Of a stretch of 58,832 nucleotides of DNA, positions 29,345-39,181 are shown one piece after another. Source of the stretch: Nitrospirae bacterium GWB2_47_37 (GTDB lineage Bacteria > Nitrospirota > Thermodesulfovibrionia > Thermodesulfovibrionales > Dissulfurispiraceae); NCBI GenBank assembly GCA_001803635.1, contig MHDU01000044.1, positions 1-58,832 on the forward strand, in the 5' to 3' direction. The notes below the pieces were generated by a model that had not been told where the DNA came from, ran no database searches, and saw only the letters and a list, made by a program, of their open reading frames with translations. Position numbers and translations under genes: made by a program. Position 1 is the stretch's first letter. Every line of letters begins with the position of its first letter.

Positions 29345-30874
29345 ATGACAAGCATTTTCTTAATGACGATGAAAACAATAGCAAGACAATTAGAAAACAA
29401 CACACCTCTTTTCCCTCTTGGGAGAACAATAATTGACTCGCCCTATATCCCTATTGAGAATCAGATGTGCAATTCTATTGAACAGCAGACTGCTTTGGCT
29501 GAAATAGATGCCTTTGACGGCAAACTAACGCAACACTTTCGCAACAAAATCAAGCTACAACCGGAATTGACACGCCAACTTGTCAGTTTTCAAGCTAATA
29601 AACCCAGGCCGACCTACCGTTGGTATAAATACAAGGAGGCTTTTTCCGCTGATCTAATTGAAATTTTATTGTCAAAATATGGAATTACATCCGGCAAAAT
29701 TCTTGATCCATTTGCAGGGAGCGGTACTGCTTTGTTTGCTGCAAGCGATATCGGAATAAATGCCGACGGCATCGAATTGCTTCCTATCGGGCAGCAAATT
29801 ATTTTGACGCGAAAGTGTATAGAGACAGAATTTACAAAAGATGACTTTGCCGCCATTAATCGTTGGGCGTCAGAACGTCCATGGTACAAGTCAAAAAAGA
29901 GAATACCTCTTTCTGCTTTGCGCATCACAGACGGCGCGTATCCAAAGCAAACGCTTGAATTAATAGAGTTGTATATGGGAGCATGGAAAAGAGAAAACAA
30001 CAGAGTTCAATCTGTCTTACGTTTTGCTTTATTATGCGTCCTGGAATCAATTAGCTTTACACGCAAGGACGGACAATATCTGCGTTGGGATTATCGTTCA
30101 GGACGTCGGCAGGGAGCAAACCCTTTCAATAAAGGGGAAGTATTCGATTTCGACAAGGCAATATGTTTCAAGTTGAGTGATATTTACCATGATTTAGAAA
30201 CAGGCTCGGACCATAGAGGACTATTCCCCTCAAAAGTTTTACAAGGAGATATTCGACTTCTTTGTGGCTCTTGTCTCGATATACTGCCCACACTTCCTGA
30301 AAACTCATATGAGGCGGTGGTAACGTCCCCGCCCTATTGCAACCGTTATGATTATACCAGGACATATGCGTTAGAATTGGCGCTACTTGGCATAGGAGAG
30401 GAAGAGATAAGCAGGCTGAGGCAAGAAATGTTAAGTTGTACAGTTGAAAATCGGGCTAAGGATTTGTTGAAAGTTAACCCAAAATGGACAAACGCCATAA
30501 CAACATCAGACCGCCAGGAGTTGCTACAGGCTATTTTAGGTTATCTTGAAAAAGAGAAAACCGAAGGTCGATTAAACAACAACGGCATTCCCAGAATGGT
30601 ACGCGGCTATTTTTACGAAATGGCTTGCATTATTAGTGAGTGCGCACGAGTTTTGAAACCAGGTTCCCCCTTGTTTATGGTAAATGACAACGTGCGCTAT
30701 GCAGGCGCTAGCATTTCAGTTGACATGGTACTGTCTAACATCGCCGAAAGGCTGGGATTCCATGTTGAAAATATCCTTGTTTTGCCGAACGGAAAAGGAA
30801 ACAGCAGCCAGCAAATGGGTAAACATGGCCGTGATCCGTTAAGGAAGTGTGTTTATGTCTGGAGAAAGCTATAG
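29345..30874 (+). CDS. N4-cytosine/N6-adenine DNA methyltransferase of a type II system
   Basis: The 509-residue protein has the SAM-binding motif D-P-F-A-G-S-G-T-A (about residue 118) and the catalytic motif T-S-P-P-Y (about 328). SPPY is typical of N4-cytosine methyltransferases. The order, SAM motif first and catalytic motif later, fits the alpha group. It directly precedes a BsoBI/AvaI-like endonuclease and so would protect C-Y-C-G-R-G sites. The base composition is more AT-rich than the flanks, suggesting transfer. ATG codons at 29363 and 29369 are alternative starts. Confidence 0.88.
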
Positions 30875-31830
30875 TGGCTAAGAACAAACCTTACCATAAA
30901 CATCTGTCCGGCAGTTCATATCTTGTGACAACGTATGAAGAACGCAGGGCTGGTTTTGTTGCGTTGGCTCTTGAAAAAAATCGCAGAGCAACTCCTTTTA
31001 TAGAGCAGGCACGTTCTCTGAAAGCGGCTGCATCTCAAGCAAAAACTCCTGCGGATTTACTTAACATTGAGAGCATACAACCTGCCCTATTGACAGCATC
31101 AGGCGTGTCGGACAAAGCAATGAAGTATCTTCTGCCCCAGGATAAGATAGAAGCAGTCCATGGATTGATAGCTAAATATCTTGAACCCGCAGGGCCGGCA
31201 TTTGTTGAAGAATTGGTTTTCAGGTTTTTGTTAACGAGAGGAGATGCTTTGGGCGGCTCAATGCGAAATGTAGGTGGAGTCATGGGAGAGCGCAAACTTA
31301 CTCGCGCAACTCTTGCCAACCTTGCACTTGCAAAAATCCCTTATCAATGGCTTCACTCTGACAGTAAGGAATGGATTACCGGAAAGGATGACGATGCCGA
31401 TATAGAACTCTATCTTACAGCGCTTAGCTGGTCAAATAAGGGTAAACATCGCACAATGATTTATAACCGCACAATTCCCTTCATCGGTAAAAACATAGAT
31501 TTATGTCTTCTCAATTGCAGTCCGCAAGAACTGAATACTGCATTTGCTGATCCGTCTAATTATATTGCCCTTGGCGAACTCAAAGGCGGGATTGATCCAG
31601 CCGGAGCAGATGAGCACTGGAAAACAGCAAGGACATCTCTTGCCCGCATACGCAAAGCATTCTCTGATAATGGACGTTCACCTAATATCTTTTTTGTCGG
31701 TGCGGCAATTGAAAATAGCATGGCAGAAGAAATTTGGCACCAATTAGAAGATGGGACATTGAGCAATGCTGCCAACTTAACAAACGCAGATCAAGTGGCT
31801 TCTTTGTGCGGATGGTTATGTGGGCTATAG
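30874..31830 (+). CDS. AvaI/BsoBI-like type II restriction endonuclease
   Basis: From GTG 30874 (GGAG upstream, one-base overlap with the methyltransferase stop) the protein has 318 residues, the same size as AvaI (315) and BsoBI (323). It contains the motif [19 protein letters not shown]. Here E-L-K is the catalytic end of the PD-(D/E)xK site, with the Asp in K-N-I-D-L-C-L upstream. BsoBI/AvaI cut C-Y-C-G-R-G. The recognition site is inferred from the family. Uncut-looking sites such as CTCGAG at 21073 and CCCGGG at 18224 are present in the window, so avoidance is not obvious. Confidence 0.85.
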
Positions 31831-33723: not shown

Positions 33724-33811
33724 TGTTGAAGCGTGCAAAATCCTGTTTAACGGAATTTAGATTATATTGTTCATAATAGCGGGATAAAAGGTTATAATCT
33801 TAAAAGGGAAT

Positions 33812-35122
33812 ATGGAAAATATATTTTTCAGCCGGCCGGCATTTTATGCGTTTCTTTTCGGGATATTAAGCGCTGTTTCCCTTCCCCTCGGCGCATGGGT
33901 GGGCATTTTAATTAAGCCTTCAGAGCGTCTGACCGCATCCATAATGGCTTACGGCGCGGGTGCGCTGCTGGCCGCGCTTACCCTTGAACTGGTTGCCGAA
34001 GCCCTTGAAAAGCTTCATGGAGGTTTCTGGCCTATAGGGCTTGGCTGTGCCATAGGCGGTTTTACCTTTGTGGCGCTCAATCATGCAATAAGCAATAAAG
34101 GCGGCTTTTTAAGGAAGACGGCTACCCTTGCAAAACATGCGACAAAATTAAAACGCAGGCGCATCGCAGAGGTCATAGAATATTTGAGCCATGTGCCCCT
34201 TTTCAATTCGCTGCCGCCTGAAGAGATACACTCCCTTGTCGTACATGTCCATGAGAGGAATTTTAAACAGGGGACGCGCATTATCACCGAAGGGGAGCAG
34301 GGATTTGAATTGTATATAATTGAAAAAGGCAGTGTTGAGGTATTGCACCAAGGAGAAATTATTGCAACGCTCGGGCCTTCAGAAATTTTCGGTGAAATGG
34401 CGCTCCTGACTAATGAAATAAGACAGGCAACAGTGACGGCCAAGACGGATGTCACGCTGCTCGAAATCCATAAATCGGATTTTGACAGGCTGCTTCAAGC
34501 CTCTCCACAATTAAAACAGGAAGTGCAAAATATTTACGACGCCCACCTCAAAGGGCTTGAGCTTATAAGGAGAAAAGCGGATTCCAGAATATGGGCTGAA
34601 AAGGTAGAGAGGTTCACAGAAGAAAAGGACTATAAGCCCTCTGCCTCGGAGATATATAAGATATCCAAAGATCACATTGCGCATAAAGGCGCTCCTTTAG
34701 CCATTTTGATCGGCACATTCATGGACGGCATGCCCGAGTCTTTTGTGATAGGAGTAAATACAATAGGTGGTGCCGGAATAGGTCTTTCTCTTATAATCGG
34801 AATATTTCTGGCAAATTTCCCCGAATCCATGTCCAGTTCCATCGGCATGAAAAAAATGGGCATGCCCGGTTGGAAGATAATGGGATTGTGGGGTTTGCTT
34901 TGTGTGTTGTCAGGCATCGGCGCTTATCTGGGGAATATTATGTTTCAGGGCGTGCCGCCGTATGCAGTTGCGTTTATCGAAAGCCTTGCCGCCGGGGCTA
35001 TGCTCGCGATGATAGCCGAGACCATGCTGCCGGAGGCATTCGAGCAGGGCGGCTCCGTGGTCGGCATGTCGACAATCTTCGGCTTCCTCTCGGCGATTTT
35101 CGTGAAGACGATAGAGTCTTAA
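33812..35122 (+). CDS. ZIP-like membrane transporter split by a cyclic-nucleotide-binding domain
   Basis: Residues 8-35, 42-62 and 73-92 are membrane spans. Then comes a basic linker and a cNMP-binding domain (about 122-240) with the phosphate-binding cassette I-F-G-E-M-A-L-L-T-N-E-I-R-Q-A-T-V. Further spans follow from about 293 to the end. These carry D-G-M-P-E-S (305-310), A-N-F-P-E-S (334-339) and A-E-T-M-L-P-E (402-408), resembling the metal-site helices of ZIP transporters (HNxPEG and HExPxE) with changed first residues. In ZIP proteins the loop between spans 3 and 4 is cytosolic, exactly where the domain sits. Metal transport gated by cAMP, cGMP or another ligand is inferred. Confidence 0.72.
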   Translation: MENIFFSRPAFYAFLFGILSAVSLPLGAWVGILIKPSERLTASIMAYGAGALLAALTLELVAEALEKLHGGFWPIGLGCAIGGFTFVALNHAISNKGGFLRKTATLAKHATKLKRRRIAEVIEYLSHVPLFNSLPPEEIHSLVVHVHERNFKQGTRIITEGEQGFELYIIEKGSVEVLHQGEIIATLGPSEIFGEMALLTNEIRQATVTAKTDVTLLEIHKSDFDRLLQASPQLKQEVQNIYDAHLKGLELIRRKADSRIWAEKVERFTEEKDYKPSASEIYKISKDHIAHKGAPLAILIGTFMDGMPESFVIGVNTIGGAGIGLSLIIGIFLANFPESMSSSIGMKKMGMPGWKIMGLWGLLCVLSGIGAYLGNIMFQGVPPYAVAFIESLAAGAMLAMIAETMLPEAFEQGGSVVGMSTIFGFLSAIFVKTIES

Positions 35123-37868: not shown

Positions 37869-38546
37869 ATGTCCGCGAAACAATTATTGCTGCCGTTGGC
37901 GCACTCGGAGATTTTTTTGAGAAGTTGTCTCGAAAAAATGATCGGCAGGCATGTTTCTTTGACAATAACCGACAATTCCACAAGCATGATCTCCGTTAAA
38001 TCGGGCGGCAATACCGTAGCGGTCAGGCTGCATAGGATGTTCCTTAGCGCCGGAAATGACGTGATCTCCGAAGTTGCGCGATTTATAAGAAATAGAAAAG
38101 GCAAAACACCCTTAATAAGAGATTTTATAAGGCAAAACAGCGGCTGCTTGAAAAAGACCGCCAGGAAAGTCGTCATTAACGCGCAGGGCAAATATTATCA
38201 TCTTTCCGATATATACCGGTCGATAAATGAAGAGTATTTCGGCGGCACGGTGTCCGCCCGTATCGCATGGGGAGCAAAAAGCCCCCGCTATGCCGTACGA
38301 AAGAGGACTATGGGCAGTTACAGCAGCCATGCGAACATTATAAGGATCAATCCGGTTCTCGACAGGAGAAGTGTTCCCCGCTATTTTATCGAGTTTATCG
38401 TTTATCATGAAATGCTACACGCGGCTATGGGCGTCGAAATAAAGAACGGCAGGCGCTCCGTACATTCAAGGGAGTTTAAAAGGCGCGAAAGGCTTTTTAA
38501 GCATTATGACAGGGCCGCAGCCTGGGAAAAGGGAGATAAGGCTTAA
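37869..38546 (+). CDS. SprT-like zinc metalloprotease domain protein
   Basis: From the preferred ATG (MSAKQLLLP) the protein has 225 residues with a SprT-like C-terminal half: Y-F-I-E-F-I-V-Y-H-E-M-L-H (HExxH zinc site), a third His in the following V-H-S-R-E-F, and S-I-N-E-E-Y-F. SprT-like domains are predicted proteases or zinc-binding DNA-associated proteins; the target is unknown. A start 19 codons upstream is possible but reads into the tpiA promoter. An extended -10 box (TGGTATATT, 37854-37862) lies six bases before the ATG and no ribosome binding site is seen. Confidence 0.8.
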   Translation: MSAKQLLLPLAHSEIFLRSCLEKMIGRHVSLTITDNSTSMISVKSGGNTVAVRLHRMFLSAGNDVISEVARFIRNRKGKTPLIRDFIRQNSGCLKKTARKVVINAQGKYYHLSDIYRSINEEYFGGTVSARIAWGAKSPRYAVRKRTMGSYSSHANIIRINPVLDRRSVPRYFIEFIVYHEMLHAAMGVEIKNGRRSVHSREFKRRERLFKHYDRAAAWEKGDKA

Positions 38547-39181
38547 GATATGTGAAGCTCTATCAGGTTGGGGACATCCTTGATAATCCTGATAGCTTCG
38601 GTCAATTGATCATGATTTTTGTAGCGCAGAGATATTTCCTGTTCGACAATGTTTTGTTCCTTCATGAATTTCAATTTGGTCCCGATAATTTTTATGCCGC
38701 ATCCTTTCAGCAGTTCCTTTGTTTTTAGTTCTTCCGTGCCCTTGATTTTAATTAAGAGGCTCGCGTATCGGTTTGTGGGAAGAATATCCTCGATGTTTTT
38801 TAATATTGCCAAATTTACAAGCACAAGCAGGGAGGTAAAGCCCGCAATCATGTATTCTCCGAAACCTACGGCCATGCCGATGGCGCTGACTATCCAGAGG
38901 GATGCGGCAGTGGTAAGCCCCCTGATATAGTTGCCGTGCCTTAATATCGCGCCCGCGCCGAGGAAGCCGATGCCGACGACGATCTGCGCCGCGATCCGGG
39001 CGGGGTCCGTATACACACCGTAAGTCTTGTATACGTGAACCGAGGCGATGGTGAACAGGCATGAGCCTAAGCAGACGAGAAGCTGCGTGCGGAAGCCCGC
39101 GTATTGTCCTCCCATCTGCCGTTCGATGCCGATAAGCCCGCCTAATGTCGCAGCGATTATGAGTTTCAGGAAGTTTTCCAA
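38543..39181 (-). CDS. MgtC/SapB-family membrane protein
   Basis: The 212-residue protein has four or five N-terminal membrane spans with the family motifs L-I-G-I-E-R-Q (about 17-23), G-F-R-T, and G-I-G-F-L-G-A-G-A-I. An ACT-like C-terminal domain covers about 140-212. MgtC proteins affect magnesium-limited growth and ATP synthase activity; related proteins are of unknown role. It starts with TTG after GGAGGGAC. Its end overlaps the SprT-like gene by four bases (convergent). Confidence 0.88.
   Translation of the reverse strand: MENFLKLIIAATLGGLIGIERQMGGQYAGFRTQLLVCLGSCLFTIASVHVYKTYGVYTDPARIAAQIVVGIGFLGAGAILRHGNYIRGLTTAASLWIVSAIGMAVGFGEYMIAGFTSLLVLVNLAILKNIEDILPTNRYASLLIKIKGTEELKTKELLKGCGIKIIGTKLKFMKEQNIVEQEISLRYKNHDQLTEAIRIIKDVPNLIELHIS

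Follow-up and report, generated by a model that had tools for sequence, protein, structure and literature searches.

What does a ZIP-like membrane protein do when a cyclic-nucleotide-binding (cNMP) domain is lodged within its membrane fold? The question is raised by a gene on contig MHDU01000044.1, a 58,832-nucleotide stretch of DNA (analyzed whole and referred to here as the window) from the 2.47-Mb genome of Nitrospirae bacterium GWB2_47_37. A preliminary description of this DNA had proposed a ZIP-like transporter with a cNMP domain inserted in its cytosolic loop, and the open reading frame is as given there (33812..35122, + strand; ATG start; 436 amino acids), with matches to both PF00027 and PF02535.

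The gene is real, because comparison with an orthologue whose protein is 95% identical (L001 in genome G001, the MAG FK1.bin72) gives a dN/dS of 0.12 over its whole length; for the sensor part the value is 0.09, which indicates strong purifying selection. Just 5′ of the gene is a promoter-like TTCATA-17-TATAAT element (33770..33798, +), a match to consensus only that is identical in the sister genome. The gene is solitary, with a divergent ABC-2 exporter pair upstream and a converging gene for a family-5 solute-binding protein downstream, and the same layout surrounds the orthologue in the sister genome. None of its neighbors in the window suggests an operon shared with genes for metals or cyclases. 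An MgtC-family membrane protein (PF02308) is encoded 3.4 kb away on the opposite strand (38543..39181, −) and is retained in the sister genome, a weak pointer to a possible magnesium connection. The window also contains a type II restriction-modification pair (29345..31830, +), in which the gene for an N4/N6 DNA methylase (PF01555) overlaps that for a BsoBI-family endonuclease (PF09194, E = 9e-150). At this spot, beside the ABC-2 exporter, the sister genome has a different 327-amino-acid gene, and the pair therefore looks like an exchangeable island.

The match of the membrane part to the Zip family profile (PF02535) is weak, at 26.1 bits (E = 6e-6) relative to a Pfam gathering cut-off of 35.1, and its relatives score 22 to 32 bits. 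Hydropathy places three spans before residue ~95 and five after residue ~294, separated by a long polar middle, in agreement with the count in the preliminary description. TM1 to TM3 (residues 8–96; 33833..34099, +) correspond to helices 8–33, 38–67, and 72–96 of an AlphaFold2 model and align to BbZIP, the Bordetella bronchiseptica ZIP protein of the GufA subfamily (PDB 5tsa, 7z6m, 8ght); TM4 to TM8 (residues 294–435; 34691..35116, +) are likewise defined by hydropathy, model helices, and the BbZIP match. A profile of the subfamily matched BbZIP over positions 6 to 244 of 253 (E = 2e-10 to 1e-9), and its sole other match was a designed protein (E = 0.03). When the model was compared with known structures using VIA-align, all eight BbZIP entries ranked first (Z 24.5–27, 2.0–2.7 Å over 215–242 residues; the best, Z 27, superimposes at 2.1 Å over 229 residues), followed by cyclic-nucleotide-binding domains (CNBDs) at Z 14, and matches in a viral structure library were confined to the cNMP part. 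The alignment of 12 sequences from which the model was built includes five GufA ZIPs, so that a ZIP fold emerges more easily; pLDDT is 63 overall, 66–88 for most of the membrane part, and below 50 for the linkers and some stretches of the sensor (an earlier model from four sequences, with a pLDDT of 39, was discarded). Since the profile spans BbZIP end to end and the model ranks BbZIP entries first, we assign the membrane part to the ZIP fold, with eight helices arranged 3+5, as had been proposed.

The metal site of this fold departs from that of BbZIP. The motifs that had been taken as signs of a ZIP protein are all present on the + strand, as DGMPES in TM4 (residues 305–310; 34724..34741), ANFPES in TM5 (residues 334–339; 34811..34828), and ETMLPEA (residues 403–409; 35018..35038), but the last of these lies in TM7, outside the binuclear site, where Thr404 takes the place of the BbZIP exit residue Glu276. 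In the alignment, six of the eight residues of the BbZIP binuclear center are different in the window protein (Met99 to Leu52, His177 to Asp305, Asn178 to Gly306, Gln207 to Ala334, Asp208 to Asn335, and Glu240 to Ser367), and only the two glutamates are kept (Glu181 as Glu309 and Glu211 as Glu338). The claim that Asp and Asn replace the metal-site His residues is therefore correct for His177, a position that is Asp in all 16 subfamily members, but not for Asn335, which stands at Asp208 and is matched by Asn in ordinary GufA ZIPs too. DGMPES replaces HNxPEG, and the M2 and M3 sites are also absent, the M3 residues Glu276, His149, and His151 all being replaced. The residues of BbZIP that mediate zinc autoregulation through the TM3–TM4 loop, L(3,4), are likewise not retained, with Asp144, His149, His151, and Glu276 becoming Asn, Asn, Gly, and Thr404. 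Glu59 in TM2 (33986..33988, +) aligns with Ser106, an entry residue in BbZIP (PMC9278863, PMC9873690), and 15 of the 16 subfamily members have an acidic residue, Asp or Glu, there. Judged by these alignments, the window protein has the fold of a ZIP metal transporter but not the chemistry by which one is defined.

This His-less core is shared with other proteins. A query limited to the transmembrane helices recovered a family of ~250-amino-acid unfused proteins from Rhizobium, Deinococcus, Pantoea, Sphingomonas, Haladaptatus, and others, so that His-less relatives are found in Proteobacteria, Deinococcus, and haloarchaea. These relatives (e.g., WP_203431459, WP_225523609, and WP_120456739) share the same membrane core, at 35–39% identity, but their TM3–TM4 loop is short and basic and lacks the cNMP domain that the window protein carries there. 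DG.PES in TM4 and N.P in TM5 are invariant in an alignment of five unfused and two fused proteins. By sequence, then, the His-less core is that of a widespread unfused subfamily, and because the metal-site changes are common to unfused relatives, they are not linked to the sensor. One unfused gene (L025; G200:C14:191608-192344) has a frameshift between TM4 and TM5, either because it is a pseudogene or through sequencing error. Two others (L128:5232-6558 and L130:5226-6507), on Sphingomonas and Aquincola plasmids, follow directly on msrA or msrB, and corA is no more than 6 kb away, a context that hints at oxidative stress and divalent cations. We set aside gene context as a guide to substrate, given that this vicinity occurs on two plasmids only and that the fused lineages have no common neighbor.

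This subfamily is labeled as zinc transporters, a substrate assignment that is best regarded as putative. Several of the unfused relatives are named “ZIP family zinc transporter” by NCBI, and the window protein could, on that basis, be seen as a conventional zinc importer whose site has diverged and in which the sensor does only fine-tuning. However, that annotation rests on family resemblance, counterparts of His177, Met99, and Gln207 are missing, and the Zip score is under the curated cut-off, and we consider a zinc importer very unlikely. Taken together, Asp305, Glu309, and Glu338, in a site devoid of His, Met, and Gln, hint at a hard ion with a preference for oxygen ligands rather than at zinc.

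With the HNxPEG, M2, and M3 sites lost, the protein may move no metal at all, and the term metal transporter used in the preliminary description is not supported as it stood. A nontransporting ZIP fold could serve as a membrane receptor or anchor; an ion or ligand sensed at the Asp/Glu site would then be reported by the cNMP domain, or signaling would run the other way. Across 16 subfamily members the metal-site changes show little or no variation, as expected if a new role had become fixed, and the ZIP proteins IRT1 and ZIP4 have been described in the literature as transceptors. Such a receptor would nonetheless have no output domain following the cNMP domain, and in the window protein the pathway has stayed acidic (Asp305, Glu309, Glu338, Glu59) and TM4 and TM5 have retained their Pro-Glu breaks, as would suit a working elevator. 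We therefore regard a purely receptor-like role as rather unlikely, and transport as the better account of the membrane part.

The inserted cytosolic part (residues 97–290; 34100..34681, +) was delimited by alignments of fused and unfused members and consists of a GGFLRKTAT anchor, a linker helix, the cNMP domain, and a long exit helix. As had been claimed, the domain sits in the cytosolic loop between TM3 and TM4, which is regulatory in BbZIP and in plant IRT1 (PMC10256678). Among as many as 395 Nitrospirota genomes searched with profiles, including 176 of the order and 229 of the class of the window genome, we recovered five fused genes, those of the window and G001 (436 amino acids), G171 (610 amino acids), and G256 and G371 (465 amino acids each), as well as at least seven unfused genes. 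The five hosts are separate Nitrospirota species from four families and more than one order. All five proteins have the insert at the same point of the TM3–TM4 loop, and the flanks GG[FY][LV]RK[TAS][AS]T and H[KS]GAPLAI are retained despite an overall identity of 40%. No neighboring gene shared among the four fused lineages was found. The profile search gave no match in the congener G002 (an 88% complete genome), no fusion was found in 72,556 plasmid records or in phages, and viral contigs contained unfused relatives but no fusion; a separate scan of genome contigs with patterns from the window protein reaches close relatives only. Within the Nitrospirota genomes, plasmids, phages, and viral contigs searched, and as far as could be searched, the fusion is rare and clade-bound. 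A phylogeny of 22 sequences places the fused proteins on one side of a branch with support of 100/99, recovered in all 200 bootstrap trees, and a single fusion event is thus the simplest reading.

Host genomes in this set are mostly drafts, which could raise the concern that the fusion was produced by assembly or gene calling. We ruled out an assembly chimera because five genomes share the arrangement at 40–95% identity. More generally, the reading frame is continuous across the two junctions in every one of these genomes, which represent four families; the flanks match as well, purifying selection is evident, and the probability that the fusion is an artefact is negligible.

The cNMP domain itself is clearly defined (PF00027, residues 148–230; 34253..34501, +), with a score of 80 bits (E = 1.3e-22) compared with a gathering cut-off of 27.5, sequence matches in the PDB to PKG, PKA-R, MlotiK1, and SthK, and VIA-align scores of Z 13–14 to CNBDs. 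Its phosphate-binding cassette, FGEMALLTNEIRQATV (residues 193–208; 34388..34435, +), was identified by alignment to PfPKG and the fused relatives and contains Glu195 and Arg204. In PKA, PKG, and CRP, the Glu and Arg of this cassette bind the ribose and phosphate of the ligand. Both residues are intact in four of the five fused proteins, those of the window, G001, G256, and G371, the last two with the cassette LGEIALLTGAPRTA. We rejected c-di-GMP, one of the ligands initially considered, since the cassette appears to be of the cyclic-mononucleotide type.

The preliminary description had made its proposal dependent on a binding Arg in relatives; this Arg is present in four of the five fused proteins, so that the proposal is not refuted outright, but the fifth has lost it. 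G171 has two cNMP domains at the insertion site, and both lack the pocket residues (GW or GG in place of GE, and His in place of Arg), and ligand binding by the sensor is therefore not universal among the fused proteins. It is conceivable that the inserted domain is a cNMP-fold module with a structural or dimerization role that binds no cyclic nucleotide, as in CNNM proteins, whose CNBH domain, although of PF00027 fold, does not bind nucleotides (PMC6429129). As to a blocked or missing nucleotide pocket in the manner of CNNM, the pocket residues are kept in four members and lost in G171, and the pocket region of the AlphaFold2 model is of low confidence. That the Glu and Arg of the cassette persist between window, G001, G256, and G371 proteins at only 40% identity, and that dN/dS is lowest in the sensor part, both argue against a nonbinding module, which we consider improbable. 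All five fusion-bearing genomes encode class III nucleotidyl cyclase domains, and cyclic nucleotides are therefore probably made in these organisms. A HAMP-linked class III cyclase (PF00211, E = 3e-30; L098:3195-4661) is encoded in G171 on the same strand, 388 bp upstream of the fused gene with its two sensors (L098:5050-6882); the only fused gene with a neighboring cyclase is thus also the only one with degenerate pockets.

Our preferred reading, offered with moderate confidence, is an elevator transporter of ZIP fold in which a cyclic mononucleotide (cAMP or cGMP) governs activity and the cargo is most likely a divalent cation. We computed the fold, the insertion site, the intact pocket, the conservation, and the single-clade distribution; we infer that the protein would transport, what it would carry, that it would bind a ligand, and how binding would be coupled to movement and in which direction it would exert control. 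In ZIP elevators, the scaffold includes TM2, TM3, TM7, and TM8, and the moving transport domain includes TM4 and TM5 (PMC9278863, PMC9873690). L(3,4) of BbZIP, which bends back and coordinates metal with His149 and His151, acts as an inhibitor of uptake (PMC10256678). The inserted domain, with a helix leading in from TM3 and the long exit helix leading out toward TM4, would take over from this zinc-sensing loop and form a bridge from a fixed scaffold helix to a moving one. Ligand binding to a CNBD moves its C-terminal helices. By analogy, a ligand held by Arg204 and Glu195 would close the β-roll and shift the exit helix, and the shift might free or brace TM4 relative to TM3 and thereby change the rate of the elevator. 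More speculatively, and at somewhat less than an even chance, the protein would be a second-messenger-gated elevator in which the sensor is the physical hinge between scaffold and moving domain and the ZIP core has been re-tooled with Asp and Glu to suit a hard divalent cation (Mn2+, Mg2+, or Fe2+, for example).

Several known systems resemble parts of this arrangement. BbZIP shares the eight-helix fold, the Pro-Glu breaks of TM4 and TM5, and the position of the regulatory loop between TM3 and TM4, but its loop is a His loop of ~20 residues, whereas the window protein has an insert of ~190 residues with a cNMP domain. Known regulation of ZIP proteins comes from their own metal, from modification, and from endocytosis. 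In the open-license literature searched, we found no second messenger acting directly on a ZIP protein and no published report of a ZIP-cNMP protein. SthK and MlotiK1, well-studied bacterial CNBD proteins related in sequence to the window domain (E ~1e-16), are K+ channels and not transporters. CNNM magnesium transport mediators combine metal transport with a cNMP-fold domain, but have a different membrane domain, a CBS pair, and a C-terminal CNBH domain that does not bind ligand (PMC6429129). Bacterial cation:proton antiporters (e.g., WP_014249724 of Azospirillum) have, like the window protein, a PF00027 domain with an intact cassette; however, their membrane fold is Na_H_Exchanger and the domain is C-terminal. 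The sperm Na+/H+ exchanger SLC9C1 is a secondary transporter controlled by a CNBD (PMC6052114), and that domain (9ydf) is a structural match to the window model (Z 13.3), although SLC9C1 has an exchanger fold and a voltage sensor, and its CNBD follows the transport fold where that of the window protein lies inside. Cyclic-nucleotide control of a transporter is thus already known from SLC9C1, and what appears new, in the literature searched, is a cNMP domain within the ZIP membrane fold rather than behind it. Because a sensor of known mechanics sits exactly between the elevator halves, ligand control of elevator movement could be studied here in one small protein. If the sensor does act as the hinge, this would be the first known case of a ZIP-fold protein controlled directly by a cyclic nucleotide.
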